64,000 bases of DNA from a virus. This document shows positions 13,335 through 64,000 of this stretch, in pieces (positions within the stretch are counted from its first letter, which is position 1; each line of letters starts with the position of its first letter). The position numbers were made by a program, and so were the translations under genes. The notes beneath the pieces are model-generated. The model saw only the letters and a list, made by a program, of their open reading frames with translations, was not told where the DNA came from and ran no database searches. The DNA lies in IMG/VR virus record IMGVR_UViG_3300021599_001395, positions 62,001 through 126,000 of that record; one strand, 5' to 3'.

Positions 13335-14789
13335 TTACTGTGTTTTTTTATTGTAGGAATATAATTTATTTATTTTTTTAAGTTCTTCTTCAAGTACGTT
13401 AGATAATTTATTAGTTGATTCTTTAACAAAATGAACATCTGCAGGATTTTCCCAACTGTGTCCCCAACTAACATCTTTTTTCTTTTTAATACTTTCTTTT
13501 TTTCTTTTTGTCTTATCTACAATTTTACTTCCTGTTTTATCTTTTACGACGTTTCCGGCATCAGATGAATTACCCATTGTACTATCACCTTCTAAAGCCT
13601 TTTTAACTCTATCTTTAAAACCTTCTGTTGGTTCATAATCAAAAGTTAAATCGCTAGCGGTTTCTCCTCTTTTATCTTCTATCTTTTTTTCATCTTCTGA
13701 TGTGTTTCTAAAAGCCATTTTATCTCCTTTACCTATTGGTTTTGGAAATTCAGGATTATCGTTTCCATCAAAACTTAAATATTTTTTCAATTTAGTTGAA
13801 AGTTCTTTAGCATAATCTTCATTTTCTTTTTTAGATCCTGATTGAGCTTTTTTAGTTACAGTGACACCAGGAATGCCGGGAATACCAGGTTGACCTTTAG
13901 CCGCTTCTGTTACCATATTACTAATTAAAGAAACTAATTCAGATTCTTTTAAACGTAATTTTTTCTTTGTGGATTCTTTCATTGAACCACATTCGTTACA
14001 TTGACCTTCTTCATTTAATTCACCGATACCACATTCAGAACAAGTTGTTTTTTCACCATCTTCCGCAATATAATCTAAAGATTTCGCCATATCGGGTTCA
14101 TAATCACGTAAACTATCATTGAATCTATCTCCAACTTTTTTACTTATGTCACGTATTTTAGAAAATAATGATATTTTTCCTTTTTTACTTTGGATATCAC
14201 TAAGATCTTTATCTAGTTCTGATGTATTTTCGTCTTCGAAACCATCCATGGCTAGATCTATTTCAGATAAGTCAGTATCGTTAGGTAAATTACCGTCTTC
14301 GGGATTTTCATCAGTTTCATTATCCAAATCCTCTTCCATGTTACATTCTTCACAAGTTTCTTCTTCTTCCATTTTTTTCCACATTTCCTCAACGTCGTAC
14401 ACTTCTTCGTTTATTTTTAATTTACTTTTGTTTTGTGTTTTAGCCAATAAAATAGCCTCAGCTAAACTTTTTACTTTTGGTTTACTTTTCATATCTTGAT
14501 TTTCTTTTTCTTGTAATTCTTCACCCATTTTATCCAATTCATCTAACATATGATCATATGAATCATATTCACCTGGTTCAATAATAAATTGTTTACCTGG
14601 GTGTTCTTTTTTTAATTTATCAACAATTTCATTCGCTTCTTCTTCACTTCCACAAACTTGTACGGGTTCACCCTCACAGGTTATTTCATAAACCTCATGT
14701 TTTCCTTCTTTAGATTCATTAATTATTCTTTTTTTAACCTCGTTAAATAAAGAACTTTCAATAAGATTATTTAAATCAATTGGTTTCAT
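13335..14789 (-). CDS. Large charged protein with zinc-ribbon-like Cys pairs (484 aa)
   Basis: I start at ATG 14789 (MKPIDLNNLIESSLF), one base after the upstream stop; an earlier in-frame start at 14816 would overlap that gene. Residues about 45-110 form a small alpha/beta domain (YEITCEGEPVQVCGSEEEAN). Then come a CEEC pair, a long acidic stretch, and a rubredoxin/zinc-ribbon-like pattern CSECGIGELNEEGQCNECG. A short collagen-like Gly-x-x run (GQPGIPGIPG) precedes a Lys/Glu-rich C-terminus with a GHSWENP motif. Function unknown; length and composition would suit a scaffold or other virion-associated protein, which is inference. Confidence 0.75.
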   Translation of the reverse strand: MKPIDLNNLIESSLFNEVKKRIINESKEGKHEVYEITCEGEPVQVCGSEEEANEIVDKLKKEHPGKQFIIEPGEYDSYDHMLDELDKMGEELQEKENQDMKSKPKVKSLAEAILLAKTQNKSKLKINEEVYDVEEMWKKMEEEETCEECNMEEDLDNETDENPEDGNLPNDTDLSEIDLAMDGFEDENTSELDKDLSDIQSKKGKISLFSKIRDISKKVGDRFNDSLRDYEPDMAKSLDYIAEDGEKTTCSECGIGELNEEGQCNECGSMKESTKKKLRLKESELVSLISNMVTEAAKGQPGIPGIPGVTVTKKAQSGSKKENEDYAKELSTKLKKYLSFDGNDNPEFPKPIGKGDKMAFRNTSEDEKKIEDKRGETASDLTFDYEPTEGFKDRVKKALEGDSTMGNSSDAGNVVKDKTGSKIVDKTKRKKESIKKKKDVSWGHSWENPADVHFVKESTNKLSNVLEEELKKINKLYSYNKKTQ

Positions 14790-20918: not shown

Positions 20919-23255
20919 TTAAGAAATTTTTGTTGTTATGTAATCTATGGAAGAAATGTTTTCATCTTTTTTAATCATAATGATGTTATCGGACCAATTT
21001 CTAATCAATGGGTTATGTGAGATAACAAATATGTGTTCAAAATAATTTTTAATCTTCTTAAAAAATTCACCAACCATTTCTAAATTATCGTCAGCAATTT
21101 TACCAAATACTTCATCCATCACAACAATATTTGGTTTAGGTAAAGACGATACCTTTGTAAGAACACTCCTAATTGCAAGTGATGATATTGTTTTTTCGTA
21201 ACCAGATCCACTTGATAGAGGTTTAACGACTCTTGTTTCATTATCGATCATTAGGAATTCTAACTCGTTTTTATCGTTAATATTCAACTCCAAAGTAAAG
21301 TAACAACTATCTGACAATAACCTATGTAATTCCTGATTCAATAATGGTATCATATTTTTTATGATAACTTTTGATATACCGTTTTTACCATATATTGTTA
21401 AGTAAGTTTTAAAGACAGATATCAATTCTTCTTCTGATTTAATTTTTTTAATTAAATCATCATTAATTGTTATCTTCTCTTCTAAATTCTTAATGTTGTT
21501 TCCATGTCTTTCAATACTTGTGGTGATTTGTCTTATTTCACCATTAGTACTTTCGATCTGAGTTCTCAAATTAATAATTTCAGAATCTATTTTTTTATTT
21601 TCCTCAAGTTTACTTTTATTGCTTTCGTATACTTCTAATTTTTTTTCTTTTGAATCTATTTCTAATTGTTTCTGTTCACACTCTAATTCGTATTTGGCCC
21701 TACGAAGTTTATTTTTCTCATATTCATCATACTCCGTTTTTAAATTATTAAAAACAGATTCAGATTCCTTCAACCCATTTAACTTTTCTTCTGATTTTTT
21801 AAGTTCATCTTTTAACTCATTAATCTTTTTCCTTAAATTTTCAATTTCCTCGGTATGGTCAACATCTTCAAGGGGTCTACTACATGTTGGACATATAGTT
21901 CCTTCTTCAAATTGTTTAATTAATTTTTCATCTTTATCAATTGTACCACCATCTAATTTAATCTTAACGATTAAATCATTTATTTCTCTTTTTAATGTTT
22001 CATGTTCATCTTCAAGGTAATATTCTGATGGTTCTTTAACATTGACTTCGTCAGCAAGTTTCTGTGTGTTTTGTTTTTTTAATTTTAATTCTGAAATTTC
22101 TTTAACTAAAGTATCGGGATTTATTTTAATTAATTCTTGATCAACATCATTGTTTCTTCTTTTAAGAACCTCTTCTTTTTGATCGTCTAATTTTTTTAAT
22201 TTCTTATTAGTATTTTTAAGATCCTTTTCCAGTTTATCGATTTCGGAATTTGAAGAGTCAATTTCCTCACGATTTTTTTTATTCTTATCTTCTAAATCAA
22301 CGATATTGTTTGTATTTGATATTAATTTTTTAGACCAATCATTATAAATGTTTTTACATATTTCTTCTTTATGTTTTAAACTTTCAAGACCTAAAAATTT
22401 TGTAAGTATTTGTCCTCTTGCAGTTGGTTTGGATTCAATCAACTCTTCTAAGTTGTTGCCGGTTGTTAATATTGTAGAAAGGAAGTCCTCTTCAGTACCG
22501 ATTGCCGAAGTTATAATAATTTCAGTTTCTCTTCTTTGTTCACCAGATAAATTGATAATACTGCCATCCTTTTCTATTTTAGAAAATTCCAAATCATTTT
22601 TTACTGTATATTCACCTGATTTACTTTTCTTTCTTGAAACAATTCTAGAAATTATATAATCTTCTCCGTCAATAGATACGTAACCTTTAACATTAACTTC
22701 ATCAACATCAGTGAATTTATTAAAAATTTCTATATTTGTTTTTGTTTTCGTTGTTGAATTAAAAAATAAGAACATCAATAAGTCAACTGTTGATGTGGTT
22801 TTACCACCAAAGTTTCTCGGTGTAGATTCAATAACAGTAATACCATCAAGATTGTCGAAATCAATAACATTGTCTTGTCCAAAAGATAGAAAATTTGAAA
22901 ATTCCAATTTCTTTATATGCCATTTATTATACCTAACTCTGTTTTGATTTAATTTATCAATTTCACCATTAACGCGATCATCTAATCTATTTATCATCTC
23001 CCACTTAATATCTATTTTATTATCTTGAATAAAATCTTTAATTAAGTTTTTTTGATTTTGATAATCCAAAATACTGTCACTAACATCTAGTGATTTCAAT
23101 TTTGTTTTTGAATTATTAGACAGTATCTTAGTTACGATCTTTACGTTTGTTGAGTTGTATTTTTTTTCAAAATACGACTTGACTCTCTTTATTCTTTCTT
23201 GTGTTAAGTTTTCGGGTGTATCCTCCCATTCAACCTTTATAAAAGGGTTATTCAT
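20919..23255 (-). CDS. 46: gp46/SbcC/Rad50-like recombination ATPase (778 aa)
   Basis: Start at ATG 23255 (the next in-frame TTG upstream is less likely). The N-terminal ATPase half has LEFSNFLSFGQDNVIDF and the P-loop region ESTPRNFGGKTTS, where the first Gly of GxxxxGKT is replaced by Pro. Long coiled coils (about 280-620) surround a zinc-hook CPTC near residues 453-456. The C-terminal half carries the ABC signature LSSGSGYEKTISSLAIRS and Walker B PNIVVMDEVFG. Together with gp47 it resects DNA ends for recombination-dependent replication. gp47 is encoded about 1.2 kb upstream, separated by three small genes. Confidence 0.93.
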   Translation of the reverse strand: MNNPFIKVEWEDTPENLTQERIKRVKSYFEKKYNSTNVKIVTKILSNNSKTKLKSLDVSDSILDYQNQKNLIKDFIQDNKIDIKWEMINRLDDRVNGEIDKLNQNRVRYNKWHIKKLEFSNFLSFGQDNVIDFDNLDGITVIESTPRNFGGKTTSTVDLLMFLFFNSTTKTKTNIEIFNKFTDVDEVNVKGYVSIDGEDYIISRIVSRKKSKSGEYTVKNDLEFSKIEKDGSIINLSGEQRRETEIIITSAIGTEEDFLSTILTTGNNLEELIESKPTARGQILTKFLGLESLKHKEEICKNIYNDWSKKLISNTNNIVDLEDKNKKNREEIDSSNSEIDKLEKDLKNTNKKLKKLDDQKEEVLKRRNNDVDQELIKINPDTLVKEISELKLKKQNTQKLADEVNVKEPSEYYLEDEHETLKREINDLIVKIKLDGGTIDKDEKLIKQFEEGTICPTCSRPLEDVDHTEEIENLRKKINELKDELKKSEEKLNGLKESESVFNNLKTEYDEYEKNKLRRAKYELECEQKQLEIDSKEKKLEVYESNKSKLEENKKIDSEIINLRTQIESTNGEIRQITTSIERHGNNIKNLEEKITINDDLIKKIKSEEELISVFKTYLTIYGKNGISKVIIKNMIPLLNQELHRLLSDSCYFTLELNINDKNELEFLMIDNETRVVKPLSSGSGYEKTISSLAIRSVLTKVSSLPKPNIVVMDEVFGKIADDNLEMVGEFFKKIKNYFEHIFVISHNPLIRNWSDNIIMIKKDENISSIDYITTKIS

Positions 23256-23307
23256 CAATAAATTGTTATTAATTCAAAAATAGTAATATTATAAGTCTTT
23301 CTAAAAA

Positions 23308-24203: not shown

Positions 24204-24473
24204 TTATTCGTCATATAAATCTTTAACTTCTTTTTTTATTATTATTGGTTCCACACTTTTTGGTTCGGATGTTAATACTGGTTCGGATGTTAATACTGGT
24301 TTAGTAGTCAATTCTTTATTTAGATGAATTGATTTAGGTAACTCACCGTATTTAACAATTGTAAAACCTTTTTCGAAAACTTGTTTCGCGAATTTCACCA
24401 CATCATTAATATTATTCAATTTACAATATTGAATGAATTCATCATCCAATATTAACGTGTTCTTCGGTTTCAT
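24204..24473 (-). CDS. Unknown small protein with tandem VLTSEP repeats (89 aa)
   Basis: Start at ATG 24473 (an upstream TTG at 24479 is weaker). Residues 1-50 (LILDDEFIQYCKLNNINDV and FAKQVFEKGFTIVKYGELP) form a conserved-looking helical domain seen, to my memory, in other Bacteroidota phages. The C-terminal part is a Ser/Glu/Pro linker built on an 18-bp tandem repeat (24262-24297) encoding VLTSEP twice. The start overlaps the gp47 gene by 32 bases. Confidence 0.65.
   Translation of the reverse strand: MKPKNTLILDDEFIQYCKLNNINDVVKFAKQVFEKGFTIVKYGELPKSIHLNKELTTKPVLTSEPVLTSEPKSVEPIIIKKEVKDLYDE
24262..24297 (-). repeat. 18-bp perfect tandem repeat (two copies)
   Basis: The unit GGTTCGGATGTTAATACT occurs twice head-to-tail (24262-24279 and 24280-24297) inside the small gene. 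It keeps frame (6 residues per unit), so copy-number changes would only lengthen the linker. Confidence 0.95.
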
Positions 24474-25260
24474 TTTCAATATCTTTAATGTCTTTTATTT
24501 TAAAGTGTAGAAATGGTTGTTCATTTGGTAGATCAAAAAATTCATAATTATCTTCTTCTACATCATATACACCATACCCATGATGTTTCACTGTTTCACC
24601 AAAATTTTGTTGTATTAAACTACCAACCATTATTGCCTTACCACCATTAGGTAATTTGAATTGTTGTCTTTTATGTATATCTCCACATAGTAATAAATCA
24701 AGATCAACAAAATTTAATCTGTCATATGCATCTTCAAATTCAAACCCCAAATCTGTTGATAACCCCTGTATTGGTCCGTGAAATAAACCAACATAAAAAT
24801 GATCCTTTTCTTTTGTGAATACAGGTCTTTGATTATGTTGATACAAAGAATATACGATCCAACTAACATTATCATCAACGTATTCACCACTATCTTTATA
24901 ATATGTAATCCATTCATTTTTTAATAATTCAACAACCGGTGATATACTATCTAATCGTTGAACGTTGTTTTCCAAGAAGTCGTGGTTGCCGGGTATAATA
25001 ACAACTTTACCAAATTTAGTTAATTCATTTAAAAACCAACTCGTTAACATTAATTGTTCATTTGATATGTTAATCTTTTGATGTGCAATATCTCCCGTGA
25101 TAACTATTCTTATATCAGAAGGTCCAATATTATCATCATACCAATCAACAACTTTTTTAGCAAGTTCATCTATCAATATTTCAAATTGTCTTTTATATAG
25201 ATCATGTAATTGAAATGTTCTGATATGTAAATCAGAAATATGTATAATCTTCTTTATCAT
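24442..25260 (-). CDS. 47: gp47/Mre11/SbcD-like nuclease (272 aa)
   Basis: All calcineurin-like phosphoesterase motifs are visible: HISDLHIR (residues 7-14), VITGDIAH, IIPGNHDF, GLFHGP and LLCGDIHKRQ, the last giving the final His ligands. This is the Mre11-like partner of gp46; the complex resects double-strand ends during recombination-dependent replication. Its ATG overlaps the PD-(D/E)XK nuclease stop as ATGA, so both are co-translated. The size matches phage gp47 (shorter than cellular Mre11). Confidence 0.94.
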   Translation of the reverse strand: MIKKIIHISDLHIRTFQLHDLYKRQFEILIDELAKKVVDWYDDNIGPSDIRIVITGDIAHQKINISNEQLMLTSWFLNELTKFGKVVIIPGNHDFLENNVQRLDSISPVVELLKNEWITYYKDSGEYVDDNVSWIVYSLYQHNQRPVFTKEKDHFYVGLFHGPIQGLSTDLGFEFEDAYDRLNFVDLDLLLCGDIHKRQQFKLPNGGKAIMVGSLIQQNFGETVKHHGYGVYDVEEDNYEFFDLPNEQPFLHFKIKDIKDIENETEEHVNIG

Positions 25261-30070: not shown

Positions 30071-30883
30071 TTACATTCCCGTACATTGGTTTAATCCATA
30101 AATTTTGTAATTATTCGTACCAATAGTAATTATTTGTGGATTTGTTGTTAATCCAATTCCATTTACAGCCAAATTAATTACTCTTAAACTAGCAACACCG
30201 ATTTCACTAACACCTGTACTATCAGTCGCCGATGTGTTTCCGGCAGGTAATAATAAACTAGGTAAGGTCGCGTTTCCACTTACAAATGTTGTACACGTCG
30301 GATCACTAAATCTTCTAATGACAAAATCGAAATCTAATAAATCTAAAGTCGTCCCCGCAATCACATTGACTGTTCCATTAATAAATCCAGAACCATCACT
30401 TTCACCAAATGCAACAATTTCAGCGGTTATTCCGGTTGGTGTTGGTGTACTAGTTGGTGTTGGTGTACTAGTTGGTGTAGGTGTACTAGTAGGAGTTGGA
30501 GTGCTAGTCGATGTAGGTGTTGGTGTACTAGTAGGAGTTGGTGTACTAGTTGGTGTTGGTGTTACGATGGGTAGTGAACTGCAAAGTGACAAATTAAATG
30601 CTAATTTATTTAGTGAGTTAATTATCAGATCTGCATAATATGATGGTGTTGACGCCGCCAAAGTATTTAATTCATAATTAATGTTATTTCTTCCAGATAA
30701 ACCATATGTTGATCCAGTATATAGTGTTGATAAGGATGTATCACCACTAACAGCCTGAATAAATGAACCATACTCGGTACTTCCAATAACCCTAAATATG
30801 GTTGCAAAATATCTCCCAAATGGTAATTGATTTAATGTACTGGTTAAAGCAACCATATCTTTGATCATATAAGACAGAATCAT
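30071..30883 (-). CDS. Thr/Pro-stalk tail protein, probably the frameshifted 3' half of a VWA protein (270 aa)
   Basis: Residues 1 to about 105 look like the second half of an alpha/beta VWA domain (FATIFRVIGSTEYGSFIQAV, ADLIINSLNKLAFNLSL). A PTPTSTPTPT stalk (about 40 residues) follows, then a C-terminal beta domain (about 110 residues, FVIRRFSDPTCTTFVSGNA). The 5' end overlaps the upstream VWA-containing frame by 92 bases in another frame. The upstream frame has the MIDAS strand but ends abruptly, while this frame continues the fold, so the two ORFs are probably one gene broken by an indel or joined by frameshifting. Confidence 0.65.
   Translation of the reverse strand: MILSYMIKDMVALTSTLNQLPFGRYFATIFRVIGSTEYGSFIQAVSGDTSLSTLYTGSTYGLSGRNNINYELNTLAASTPSYYADLIINSLNKLAFNLSLCSSLPIVTPTPTSTPTPTSTPTPTSTSTPTPTSTPTPTSTPTPTSTPTPTGITAEIVAFGESDGSGFINGTVNVIAGTTLDLLDFDFVIRRFSDPTCTTFVSGNATLPSLLLPAGNTSATDSTGVSEIGVASLRVINLAVNGIGLTTNPQIITIGTNNYKIYGLNQCTGM
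30435..30566 (-). repeat. Tandem Thr/Pro-stalk repeat array
   Basis: Degenerate 18-bp units of the type GGTGTTGGTGTACTAGTT, encoding PTPTST on the minus strand. The same array type recurs in three other genes of this block. Confidence 0.9.
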
Positions 30884-56882: not shown

Positions 56883-59424
<2,542 letters not shown>

Positions 59425-59454
59425 CTCTGTTTTTAATTTATGTTTTGTTTATTA

Positions 59455-60831
59455 TTATTTTTTAACCATCTCCTGTCTCTTCAAAAAGGCTTCTTTGGCT
59501 CTATTTTGATTGTTCTGTACCTTTTGTTCTTCATGACCCAAAAGTGTATTCTGAGACTCTGTATCGATAAGTAAGAATTGATTATCGAATTTACAGTTTT
59601 GGAACACAACACCATCTTTACCTATACGAGATTTAAGTAATGTTAATGTTGCTAAATTATGTTCCTTTTGTTCTAATGTTTTACCTATTGAAATGATAAC
59701 GTGACCTATCTGAGCCTTTTTAATTGATCCACCCATTTGATCTGTTGTTACTACTTCAGATGATATCGATCCCCTATTACCTTGAGTGGCGGTCCAAATA
59801 ACAATATCGAATTCTGTAGTCATGGCTTCTAAACTTCTCATTATAGAACCTTCTCCTTTCCATTCTTCCCCATTTGCAGATCTTTCAGGTGAGATACAAT
59901 CAACATAATCAATAACCAATAAATCAATATTAAAACCTTCAGATTTGAACTTTCTTATTTTAGATTTTATTTCACCTATTGTAATATTATCACTCGGTAG
60001 TTTTAATATTTTAATTTGACCTTTGGTATTTTCATTAACCTCATTAATTTTTTCAATAACTTCTTTTTCATTATCCGGTTGATCATCAGGTGCAATACCT
60101 GTCCAAATAGTATAGTGTTTTCTTTTAATGTTATTTACATTATCTTCGAAAACTATTTGAAGAACATTGAAACCGTATATATATGCAGTGTTAGATATTT
60201 TCGTAAGTATTGTTGTTTTACCTGTACCTGTTGGTGCTAAAACAACTCCAAGTTCACCTCTACCTAAACCACCTTTCAATAAATTATCGATACCATGAAT
60301 ACCGGTTGGAATTGGATGTCTATAGTCTTTTTTAAGAGCATCTTCAATGTTATCCAAAACATCTTCAACATCATCATTGGTTATACCAACTTGTAATGCC
60401 TTTTGAATGATATGTTCGATTTTTGAATATTCCTCAAAATTACCATTCTCAATAATGTTTGTTACCGTTTTTAATTCTCTTTTTAAATTCTGTTGTTTAC
60501 AAAAATTAAGTGCGGTATCTTTCACATACATTATATCATCTTCGGTACTGTTTTTAATATTTTCTAATGTGTCGATATGAATTTTACCATTATCTTTATT
60601 TGTGTGTTCACCCATTATTTTTTGGGCCAAAGTATTGTAATTAGGTATTTTACTATAAGTTCTATGTAATTCTTTTAAATTTTCCATGATATACTTAAAA
60701 GAATTATTATCAAAATACTTACTTTCTATAACATCAATAATTGTATCTCCATATTTTTTATCTTCTATAATTGCTTTTATTAACGATTGTTGAAACGATG
60801 ACCCTAGATGTCCAAAATTTTTTTCCTTCAT
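59455..60831 (-). CDS. 41: Replicative DNA helicase, DnaB/gp41-like (458 aa)
   Basis: RecA-fold helicase with Walker A APTGTGKTTI near residues 200-209, Walker B LLVIDYVDCI near 309, a Q-rich motif (ATQGNRGSISSEVV) and C-terminal LTLLKSRIGKDG (arginine-finger region). The N-terminal 150 residues contain the helical domain (FGHLGSSFQQSLIKAIIEDK) of DnaB family proteins. It unwinds the replication fork with the primase at 26116. Located with RNR, 5' nuclease, UvsX and SSB in the replication block. Confidence 0.93.
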   Translation of the reverse strand: MKEKNFGHLGSSFQQSLIKAIIEDKKYGDTIIDVIESKYFDNNSFKYIMENLKELHRTYSKIPNYNTLAQKIMGEHTNKDNGKIHIDTLENIKNSTEDDIMYVKDTALNFCKQQNLKRELKTVTNIIENGNFEEYSKIEHIIQKALQVGITNDDVEDVLDNIEDALKKDYRHPIPTGIHGIDNLLKGGLGRGELGVVLAPTGTGKTTILTKISNTAYIYGFNVLQIVFEDNVNNIKRKHYTIWTGIAPDDQPDNEKEVIEKINEVNENTKGQIKILKLPSDNITIGEIKSKIRKFKSEGFNIDLLVIDYVDCISPERSANGEEWKGEGSIMRSLEAMTTEFDIVIWTATQGNRGSISSEVVTTDQMGGSIKKAQIGHVIISIGKTLEQKEHNLATLTLLKSRIGKDGVVFQNCKFDNQFLLIDTESQNTLLGHEEQKVQNNQNRAKEAFLKRQEMVKK

Positions 60832-60843
60832 AATAGTTTTTTA

Positions 60844-61290
60844 TTAAAGTTCGTATTGTAAATAAGTTGTTTCTGGTTGAGACATTGACAGAATTTCAGT
60901 CAAATCTGACAAAATTACTTTTAGTCTTGGTCTAATATCAACCGTGTACCTAACCTTTGGATGATAGTAGTGAGCCGGAAACATTCTTTGAATAAATACA
61001 TCGTCACCGAGCTTAATTTGGATTAAAAAATATTCTTCTAGCTTCTCATTGATATCTTCCACATTATCGGAATTCAAAAAATAATTTTGATTTTCACATA
61101 GATAATCGGAACTTTTTATTTTTAAATCTTCAGAAATTTTATCTGAAATTTCTTTTACATAATAATGTAAATCCATTGATCTCATTGCCTTCGGATTATG
61201 ATCTTTTACGTTAAAGTACCTTTGACAGATAATGTTTTTACCTAATGTCATTAAAAACTCAAATTTTGTGATTTCTTGATTGTTAGTCAT
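60844..61290 (-). CDS. Unknown replication-block protein (148 aa)
   Basis: Not recognised. Two related segments ITKFEFLMTLGKNIICQRYF and FIQRMFPAHYYHPKV show basic/aromatic character; the rest is alpha/beta. It lies between the 5' nuclease (8-base overlap) and the helicase, where T4-type genomes may carry accessory replication factors (for example helicase loader gp59 or UvsY), but no specific similarity is visible. Confidence 0.65.
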   Translation of the reverse strand: MTNNQEITKFEFLMTLGKNIICQRYFNVKDHNPKAMRSMDLHYYVKEISDKISEDLKIKSSDYLCENQNYFLNSDNVEDINEKLEEYFLIQIKLGDDVFIQRMFPAHYYHPKVRYTVDIRPRLKVILSDLTEILSMSQPETTYLQYEL

Positions 61291-62302
61291 GATTTTTGAT
61301 TTTGATTATTCTTTTATTTTTTTCTTTTCTGGTTAATCTTAGGAAAGGATTGAAAAATATTGTCCACGCATCGTCTCTTTTTGGTAATACCTGAAATAGA
61401 CCATCTTCCATCATCATTTTTATGGTATTTTTATATGATCTACCTTCAGGATCTAATGTTCCATCAATTAACGATTGTATGTCTTCTATTGCTTCTTCGG
61501 TTAAAAATGGTTGATCTAAACTAACTACTTTGGTATTTAATTCGTAGAACTCTTCTTCTAAAATACCTTTTTTAGTTACCCCACCTAATAAGTTTAATAT
61601 TGTTTTATTATTCTTATCATTTTCAAAAAGAATATTAGTTTTTTCTCTAATTTCTTCTATTGTAACTGGTATGTGTTTGATCTCAGGAAATATAGATATT
61701 AATTTTTTAATTCCAAAATTTCTGATACCAAAAACATTATCGGACGAATCTCCACATAGTATTTTAGCGATCTTTACATTTTTAATGTGGATCTCCTCTT
61801 TCAAGTAAAGAATAGTGTCATTCTCTTTGTATAATTTACCGTGACCCGGATTGTAAATTATTGTACTATCGGAAACCAATTGAGTTAAATCTCCGTCTGA
61901 AGAATAAATAATCTTTTTTTCTTTGGGTGAATTTTGAGTATAATAAGCAATACAGTCATCAGTTTCACAAAAATCATACTGACCCTGTCTAACATATATC
62001 TCTTCAAGATATTGTTTTATTCTGTTTCTTTGATAATTGTATGAACTTATTTCCTCTTCTGATCTTAATCTAGACTTTCTGTTTTCTTTATACCCTTCGT
62101 ATATACGTTTACGTTGAATTGCACCATCTTCACCATCCCAAAAAACGACTATCTTTTCTAAATTATATGTCTCAAAAGATTTTCTAAGTGTATTAAGAAA
62201 ATGATAGATACCTCCAATGTGTTGACCCTTGTAGAAGTAATTTTTAACACCGTAGAAACCAATTGTAAGTAAATTGTCACCATCAACAAGTAAGGTTGAC
62301 AT
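61283..62302 (-). CDS. rnh: RNase H-type 5'-3' exonuclease / flap endonuclease (339 aa)
   Basis: Metal-binding acidic residues are visible: LLVDGDNLL (Asp7, Asp9), VVFWDGEDGAIQRKRIYEGY (with the basic helix), SDGDLTQLV and CGDSSDNVFGIRNFG, the last matching the H3TH DNA-binding turn. Size fits T4 rnh/T5 D15 type enzymes. It removes RNA primers and flaps during Okazaki fragment maturation. Its end overlaps the next gene by 8 bases. Confidence 0.9.
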   Translation of the reverse strand: MSTLLVDGDNLLTIGFYGVKNYFYKGQHIGGIYHFLNTLRKSFETYNLEKIVVFWDGEDGAIQRKRIYEGYKENRKSRLRSEEEISSYNYQRNRIKQYLEEIYVRQGQYDFCETDDCIAYYTQNSPKEKKIIYSSDGDLTQLVSDSTIIYNPGHGKLYKENDTILYLKEEIHIKNVKIAKILCGDSSDNVFGIRNFGIKKLISIFPEIKHIPVTIEEIREKTNILFENDKNNKTILNLLGGVTKKGILEEEFYELNTKVVSLDQPFLTEEAIEDIQSLIDGTLDPEGRSYKNTIKMMMEDGLFQVLPKRDDAWTIFFNPFLRLTRKEKNKRIIKIKNHD

Positions 62303-62332
62303 TAATGTTCATATTATTAGTTAAAAATATTG

Positions 62333-62758
62333 TTACCCTTCAATTTCATCATCGTATTGAGAAAATGTTTCCGTCAATTTAAAATCACCTCCACCTAATT
62401 TATTAGTCCAATATGTGGAATATTTTTCCTTATATTCTTCAAGTGATTCTTTTGTGTCAGGAATGTATCCATTGTGTACCGCAATGATTTTACCATCTTT
62501 GTACCCCAAACCATTAACGTGATTTTTAAGTATTGAGATTTTTGTTCTAATTGCGTAAGAAACTTTTCTGCCATCTTTAGTTGCATCAATATGATTGATC
62601 CCCGCTTTCTTTTGATTACCAAATAAGAATACTAATGATGACGCTAACCATAATGCTTCCCCACCTTTAGCCTTAATTTCCGGTTGACCAAATGTATTGT
62701 CGGGTAACTCAACCCATGAAACATATAGACCTATCAATTTCACCTTTTTCTTGTGCAT
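62333..62758 (-). CDS. uvsX: UvsX/RecA-like recombinase, C-terminal fragment (frame starts by chance)
   Basis: Real homology begins at residue 15 (WVELPDNTFGQPEIKAKGGE, position 62716) and continues with LVFLFGNQKKAGINHIDATK, AIRTKISILKNHVNGLG and a C-terminal acidic tail. The first 14 residues (MHKKKVKLIG...) are the wrong-frame reading of the N-terminal fragment's DNA. In intact homologues a long segment including Walker B lies between the two parts, so the gene appears broken here. Confidence 0.75.
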   Translation of the reverse strand: MHKKKVKLIGLYVSWVELPDNTFGQPEIKAKGGEALWLASSLVFLFGNQKKAGINHIDATKDGRKVSYAIRTKISILKNHVNGLGYKDGKIIAVHNGYIPDTKESLEEYKEKYSTYWTNKLGGGDFKLTETFSQYDDEIEG

Positions 62759-63149
62759 CTAATACCTCATTAATAAACTCTGTTGCTTGTTCAATATAAT
62801 CAAAACTATCATTAAAGATAAAATCACCATCCCATTCACCATTACTATCTTTTTCAGCTTTTAATCCTAACTCGACAGCATGATCCCAACTCCATTTTTT
62901 TTCTGTAATAATGAATACAGGTAAGTGACCTTTCTTTTGAGCGTCTGCTGCCGTTAATACAAGTGCAGTTGTCTTAGATGAATTCGAATGTCCTAAAAAC
63001 ATATTAACACCACCCATAACAGGACCGGGTAATCCGCAAGCGTTCATAAAGGCCTCACCACAATAATAGAAATTTGTTTCCTTATATTTGGTTTTTGAAG
63101 AGAATTTCTCTTTGTAATTAAATTCTTTTTTCTTTATACTTTTTGCCAT
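62709..63149 (-). CDS. uvsX: UvsX/RecA-like recombinase, N-terminal fragment with Walker A
   Basis: The N-terminus and P-loop (MFLGHSNSSKTTALVLTAAD, Walker A GHSNSSKT) are those of T4 UvsX-type RecA proteins; the protein then reads VLDAQEKGEIDRSICFMG and stops. The expected continuation, a Walker B strand ending in I-D-S, is missing. The reading continues after an apparent internal deletion in another frame (C-terminal fragment). Either a truncated, nonfunctional gene or a deletion artefact; reading frames and homology support a single original gene. Confidence 0.8.
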   Translation of the reverse strand: MAKSIKKKEFNYKEKFSSKTKYKETNFYYCGEAFMNACGLPGPVMGGVNMFLGHSNSSKTTALVLTAADAQKKGHLPVFIITEKKWSWDHAVELGLKAEKDSNGEWDGDFIFNDSFDYIEQATEFINEVLDAQEKGEIDRSICFMG

Positions 63150-63166
63150 TTCTTAAAATTTTTTAG

Positions 63167-63220
63167 ATAAAAAAACATGGACACCTACTTGGACATTGTG
63201 TCTATGTAAGTGTCCATGTT
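63167..63220 (-). terminator. Strong terminator after gp32-like SSB gene
   Basis: Eleven-base perfect arms AACATGGACAC / GTGTCCATGTT (63174-63184 and 63210-63220) with a 25-nt loop; on the minus strand a T-run follows. It lies between the SSB stop and the uvsX start and would uncouple SSB expression from the rest of the operon. Confidence 0.88.
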
Positions 63221-63227
63221 CATTAAA

Positions 63228-64000
63228 TTAGAACGGTAACTCTGAATCTACATCTTCACTATCTTGAAGATCGGGAGTAGATGATTTCGATACACCGATG
63301 GTTTCTTCTGCGGTAGAATCGGATACCCATTTTTTACTATCAGAATCCCATCTTGGGGTCTCACCTTTTGCAACCATTTCAAGATATTCTACAGGTTTTT
63401 TAGAATAAACATCAGACCAAACCAATTCATCATTAATCCATTCTTGAGCGATTGATTCATCACTGTGTAATGGTCCCACGTCTTCGGGGATCACAGAACT
63501 AACCGCCGTATATTCTTTACCATTACCTGATTTTGTAAGTGACAATGTCACGATCAAGTCACGACCTTTTTGTGGATCAGTGATATCTCCCTTGTTTCTC
63601 CAAATAGGAATAATTTTGTCCAATACCCCCTCACCTTTTATGTTATTTTTAAATCTCCAAAATTTAACACCGTCTTGTTCGTTTTCTCTGTCAATAACTT
63701 TAACAATGTAGAATTTTTTTGACCTGTATTGTCTTGCTAATTCTTTATCAGAAGCAACACCACTCATATTTAATCCTTCAGCAACTTCATTTAATGGTGA
63801 ACGATCACCATCTTGTGCTGGATCATATAATTTAAGCCAATTACCATCAACTTGAAGTTCGTGGAACTTTACTTCAACAAATGGAGAAGAACCATCCTTT
63901 GTTGGGAGGATACGAATTCTTTTTTCTTGTGTTTTAACACCTTTAGGTAAGACAGTCGTGAAATACTTTTTCATTCTGTCTTCTTGTGATACTTTGTTTG
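63228..64000 (-). CDS. 32: gp32-like single-stranded DNA-binding protein, 5'-truncated by window edge
   Basis: The frame is open to the window edge: upstream of the in-frame Met at 63974 it reads NKVSQEDR, so the true N-terminus lies to the right. The core (KKYFTTVLPKGVKTQEKRIR, ILPTKDGSSPFVEVKFHELQ, RQYRSKKFYIVKVID, KFWRFKNNIKGEGVLDKIIP) is the OB-fold of T4 gp32-type SSBs of Bacteroidota phages. The acidic C-terminus ends DSELPF, as expected for partner binding. The zinc-coordinating CxxC of T4 gp32 is absent. It coats ssDNA at forks and recruits UvsX, helicase and primase. Confidence 0.9.
   Translation of the reverse strand, partial: NKVSQEDRMKKYFTTVLPKGVKTQEKRIRILPTKDGSSPFVEVKFHELQVDGNWLKLYDPAQDGDRSPLNEVAEGLNMSGVASDKELARQYRSKKFYIVKVIDRENEQDGVKFWRFKNNIKGEGVLDKIIPIWRNKGDITDPQKGRDLIVTLSLTKSGNGKEYTAVSSVIPEDVGPLHSDESIAQEWINDELVWSDVYSKKPVEYLEMVAKGETPRWDSDSKKWVSDSTAEETIGVSKSSTPDLQDSEDVDSELPF

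Follow-up and report, generated by a model that had tools for sequence, protein, structure and literature searches.

The closest described counterparts of the gene considered here are the UvsX-like recombinases (PHROG 97; T4 UvsX / RecA superfamily). The gene is the uvsX of a virus represented by IMG/VR record IMGVR_UViG_3300021599_001395, a record of 150,387 bases (called G000), of which the stretch of 64,000 nucleotides analysed here, termed the window, forms positions 62001-126000. In the window uvsX sits between a gp32-like gene and the exonuclease and helicase genes, a set of neighbours which resembles the replication and recombination set of phage T4. The gene is broken by an internal deletion; we consider it very probable that this break is an artefact of assembly and that the phage which was sequenced carries an ordinary, intact uvsX.

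A DNA search of the phages collection with positions 61000-64000 gave no match, and a protein search of the same collection gave only four distant records matching either half of the gene. These four records represent the recombinase of Flavobacterium phage vB_FspM_immuto (MW353175-7, NC_055915), which is distant from the window gene, with 34.4% and 36.5% identity to the two halves; the feature beneath both matches is annotated as 'recombinase', and 156 bases separate the two matches, which share a frame.

A second point of comparison is the local misassembly of short-read metagenomes (PMC6350398, PMC7111523). According to PMC7111523, local assembly errors are recognised by the absence of perfect read support, and if left uncorrected they are a source of partial or faulty gene sequences that spread through public databases. 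G000 is alike in holding several such sites per record and incomplete genes; it differs in that the published sign is missing perfect read support, whereas the case described here is known from assembled sequences alone.

A split uvsX gene and its intact relatives

On the minus strand at positions 62333-63149, the list of open reading frames (ORFs) and their translations contains a UvsX/RecA-like gene broken into two overlapping ORFs in different frames, with the following features (aa, amino acids):

62709..63149, minus strand: N-terminal part of the split uvsX-like gene, an ORF of 146 aa that ends in ...DRSICFMG and a stop, just beyond the junction
62333..62758, minus strand: ORF of 141 aa holding the C-terminal part, with ...WVELPDNTFGQ... 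in another frame
62718..62719, no strand: junction at which 191 bases are absent relative to five near-identical records, with 0 bases of perfect microhomology
62695, minus strand: substitution 24 bases from the junction, the only one in 58336-64000 relative to the near-identical records

The 146-aa ORF matched PHROG 97 'UvsX-like recombinase' in a PHROG profile scan (E 1.1e-5) and contains GHSNSSKT, which we take to be the P-loop, or Walker A motif. Homology proper in the 141-aa ORF starts at 62718, its first 13 residues being the N-terminal part read in the wrong frame, and in the profile scans at E 0.001 this ORF gave no match to any family of PHROG or Pfam.

Relatives were gathered by scanning IMG/VR twice and fetching the best 80 of at least 574 and the best 80 of at least 594 confirmed loci (160 loci, several of which share a contig; their best matches amount to 94 distinct sequences). 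Among the matches listed were five near-identical IMG/VR records (L082-L086, here G001-G005). The missing 191 bases are present as coding sequence in all five, and uvsX is whole, with 335 aa uninterrupted, in four of them, the fifth (G004) ending inside the gene. The flanks of the gap are nearly invariant: on the left (gene positions 1-431) 431 of 431 bases agree in all five records, and on the right 385 of 386 agree in four records and 260 of 261 in G004. The gene is thus 817 bases long in the window as against 1008 in the near-identical relative, and the only differences between the two are the absence of the 191 bases and the substitution at 62695, which alters residue 216 of the relative, a residue shared by 98% or more of the relatives fetched in full length (uncorrected for redundancy).

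An earlier note on this DNA, made from the window alone, had described uvsX as broken by an internal deletion with a shift of frame and loss of the Walker B Asp, and had estimated 60-100 missing residues; the comparison with related uvsX genes which it proposed bears out both statements. The 191 bases equal 63 codons plus 2 bases, and codons 145-207 of the relative are entirely gone, Asp147 included. The motif, together with a weak alignment to RecA chains, would make Asp147 the Walker B position known from RecA. In the window copy, therefore, no single open frame spans an ATPase core with both Walker motifs, as the Asp falls in the missing stretch and the frames differ.

The wider set of relatives gives the same picture. 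A single match in one frame, running from residue 15 or earlier to residue 300 or later, was found in 151 of the 160 fetched loci, the other nine being cut by the edge of the stretch, and neither a stop nor a gap of more than 5 aa in the relative was found in the best match of any of the 160. Residues 41-262 of the intact relative give a profile match to PHROG 97 (E 4.3e-13), which places this protein in the UvsX/RecA recombinase family, although its score against Pfam RecA (20.4 bits) lies under the cut-off of 27. Its matches to RecA chains in the PDB are weak and cover the ATPase core, the best to a single RecA having E 0.0084; the best PDB match of all (E 7.2e-13) is to a tandem fusion of RecA, with 6.8 bits for each repeat among the rows listed. 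With respect to the UvsX/RecA superfamily, the intact relative is hence divergent, and the window record additionally lacks the core.

It could be supposed that the gene is naturally divided and made whole through trans-splicing, frameshifting or a spliced element, as both parts are open and in order. We regard this as scarcely credible, because the core is absent and not interrupted: when the intact relative was searched against the 150,387-base record, residues 1-146 and 205-335 were found at the uvsX locus and nothing else. Furthermore, 191 bases cannot come from a frameshift, and the whole protein is encoded without interruption in four near-identical records. For the G000 record, the absence of the core already refutes a two-part gene.

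The earlier note had also suggested that a second complete uvsX might explain tolerance of the loss. Neither a second complete uvsX/recA nor the missing core was found elsewhere in the 150,387-base record, which may be a genome fragment. A weak second match to PHROG 97 occurs at record positions 122190-122336 (window 60190-60336), within the DnaB-like helicase ORF, and is probably a cross-hit of P-loop ATPases. A 30-mer spanning the junction had 0 matches in viral_contigs, bearing in mind that the collection searches may omit records very near the window, and among 195 fetched loci the only three with the same junction (L001, L162 and L163) derive from the record of the window itself.

Deletions across the record and its sister assemblies

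A comparison of G000 with G003 over the full 150,387 bases revealed eight clean deletions of 49-302 bases, 0 insertions and eight substitutions. As a control, an artificial cut and an artificial insert were each introduced once, and the comparison code reported both. The deletions, by position in the record, are as follows:

13853, no strand: 162 bases absent
28386, no strand: 95 bases absent
45501, no strand: 302 bases absent
92861, no strand: 176 bases absent; second clean deletion in the window (30860..30861), cutting the relatives' 695-aa ORF into ORFs of 270 and 396 aa
124719, no strand: 191 bases absent
133430, no strand: 49 bases absent
137818, no strand: 81 bases absent
149795, no strand: 73 bases absent

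Six of the eight (13853, 28386, 45501, 133430, 137818 and 149795) lie outside the window. Apart from uvsX, the ORFs affected in the relative are three without a named function (695, 1617 and 149 aa), one of 107 aa matching PHROG 7145 (a baseplate wedge family; E 9.5e-5) and one of 372 aa matching PHROG 211 (a head-tail adaptor family; E 1.4e-9); the ORF assignment at 13853 and 45501 is unsure, the ORFs there being short. In geometry, with gaps of 49-302 bases, the eight sites fit the QUAST definition of a local misassembly as quoted in PMC6350398, the reference in this case being a near-identical assembly and not a verified genome. The uvsX site has a 191-base gap with colinear flanks in G001-G005.

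The sister assemblies carry lesions of their own. G001 (loci L164-L167 and L192-L195), compared with G003 over 100,628 bases, which exclude its last 11,946 and as many as 150 of its first, has five other deletions (231, 82, 86, 1 and 16 bases), 0 insertions and 1 substitution; its 231-base deletion falls in a virion structural protein ORF (PHROG 1645). G005 (L198 and L199) has two other deletions (18 and 147 bases) relative to G003 over 39,403 bases, 0 insertions and one 7-base mismatch block, its last 51 bases being unmatched, whilst G002 is identical to G003 over the 129,785 bases compared. As the lesions differ among them, G000, G001, G003 and G005 are separate assemblies. Relative to G003, all 15 of the 15 length changes are losses (two-sided sign test 6e-5, with the events taken as independent). 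Deletion lengths show no regard for reading frame; those not divisible by 3 make up 6 of 8 in G000 and 10 of 15 overall, against a chance expectation of 2 in 3.

These counts bear directly on whether uvsX has really been lost. A real deletion mutant, in which a lineage or subpopulation lost 191 bases of uvsX and makes use of a host or helper recombinase, would accord with a record that reads straight through without N and with the presence of the remaining replication and recombination set (gp32-like, DnaB-like, SbcCD-like). Nevertheless, we judge it very unlikely. The seven further deletions in the same record strike other genes, including the baseplate-wedge-like, head-tail-adaptor-like, 695- and 1617-aa ORFs, and deletions in G000 are as numerous as substitutions, whereas ordinary divergence does not yield one such deletion per substitution; in addition, all 160 fetched relatives retain the segment that is missing from the window. 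There is a similarly slim chance that a form with the uvsX deletion coexists with an intact form, small deletions having accumulated genome-wide while point mutations stayed rare. G001 and G005, in which uvsX is intact, show the same kind of lesion elsewhere, and the lesions are therefore not a consequence of recombinase loss.

The junctions and how they may have arisen

The earlier note had read the bases at the uvsX junction as resembling the expected flanks, and had put forward two possible origins, a deletion by microhomology and a collapse in assembly. The resemblance did not survive alignment, as the junction has 0 perfect shared bases and the ATGGG near both breakpoints is out of register with it. 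Across the eight G000 junctions, in the order given above, there are 1, 0, 2, 3, 0, 1, 0 and 1 perfect shared bases, a mean of 1.0 against 0.85 for 20,000 random cuts (P 0.37), with cut lengths drawn from the eight deletions of G000 and three of G001. Microhomology-mediated deletion is rejected on this basis, homology being at chance level. The collapse is well supported: G000 has eight deletions, few substitutions and not one insertion, and the sister assemblies have other deletions. Base composition was likewise rejected as a cause; seven of the eight missing stretches, uvsX included, have 0.25-0.38 guanine plus cytosine and one has 0.47, the record as a whole having 0.30, with no clear trend.

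Some of the substitutions lie near junctions. Distances to the nearest junction are 24, 256, 261, 2538, 2917, 4036, 4102 and 21831 bases, so that five of the eight are far from any junction; two form part of one 6-base block (window 30600 and 30605; record 92600-92605), roughly 260 bases from the junction at 30860/30861. Compared with uniform placement, P is 0.0012 for three or more of the eight falling within 261 bases and 0.021 for one or more falling within 24 bases, though both values should be considered with caution as the cut-offs were picked after seeing the data.

Junctions without overlap, and substitutions near some of them such as single error-bearing molecules would give, could also be expected if chimeric library molecules (jumps in polymerase chain reaction or ligation), at otherwise normal coverage, had made the junctions before assembly, the phage gene being intact. 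This is highly improbable, since at eight sites such rare chimeras would have to prevail over genuine molecules, an outcome to be expected only if genuine coverage there was near nil. Chimeras which win only at near-nil coverage are no longer distinct from a misassembly at thinly covered spots, and the two cases merge.

We therefore favour local misassembly at thinly covered spots, because the differences are deletion-only and indifferent to frame and gene, the junctions lack homology, some substitutions lie nearby and the records are otherwise near-identical. One metagenomic assembly would have skipped 191 bases within uvsX and, likewise, seven more stretches elsewhere in the record. At each spot two flanks may have been joined across a stretch with little or no read support, the join being made either by the assembler or by the later closing of a scaffold gap. 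Both the thin coverage as cause and the stage at which the flanks became joined are what we infer, and these data do not discriminate between a join by the assembler, a scaffold gap closed afterwards and a chimeric molecule where coverage was thin.

Several points weigh against this reading. G000 has no Ns, and its joins are without the overlap which an assembler, in an overlap-based join, normally needs. The five near-identical records are perhaps not independent witnesses, as reads may be common to them; the collection searches may omit records very near the window, so the same junction could be hidden there; and thin coverage is deduced from comparing sequences, not from reads. Moreover, with one spiked phage, as reported in PMC6350398, SPAdes in meta mode produced no local misassembly, whilst every other assembler produced at least one.

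Even so, biological loss of uvsX is not supported, and an ordinary artefact is the most likely explanation. Biologically the break is of little import, as uvsX is most likely intact in the phage. It serves rather as a warning that a single IMG/VR record can hold several clean deletions of about 50-300 bases without N which make core genes look broken, and that these come to light on comparison with near-identical records.

Gene neighbourhood

The genes of replication and recombination that accompany uvsX in the window are:

63228..63974, minus strand: gp32-like single-strand DNA binding protein, upstream neighbour of uvsX (Pfam PF08804, E 1.8e-15)
61283..62302, minus strand: 5'-3' exonuclease-like protein, downstream neighbour of uvsX (Pfam PF02739, E 2.4e-25)
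59455..60831, minus strand: DnaB-like replicative helicase (PHROG 19, E 7.5e-64)
20919-23258: SbcC-like ORF (PHROG scan)
24442-25260: SbcD-like ORF

The loss of a recombinase in a phage with gp46/47 had been called odd in the earlier note. Its premise holds, given the SbcC- and SbcD-like ORFs; good evidence that the loss itself is real is lacking. No match in the record was obtained with the SbcC-like ATPase profile Pfam PF13476, even though the SbcC-like ORF is recognised by the PHROG scan. A ribonucleotide-reductase-like ORF (57145-59424; PHROG 367, E 4.3e-76) has a baseplate-wedge-like ORF on one side and a helicase-like ORF on the other.
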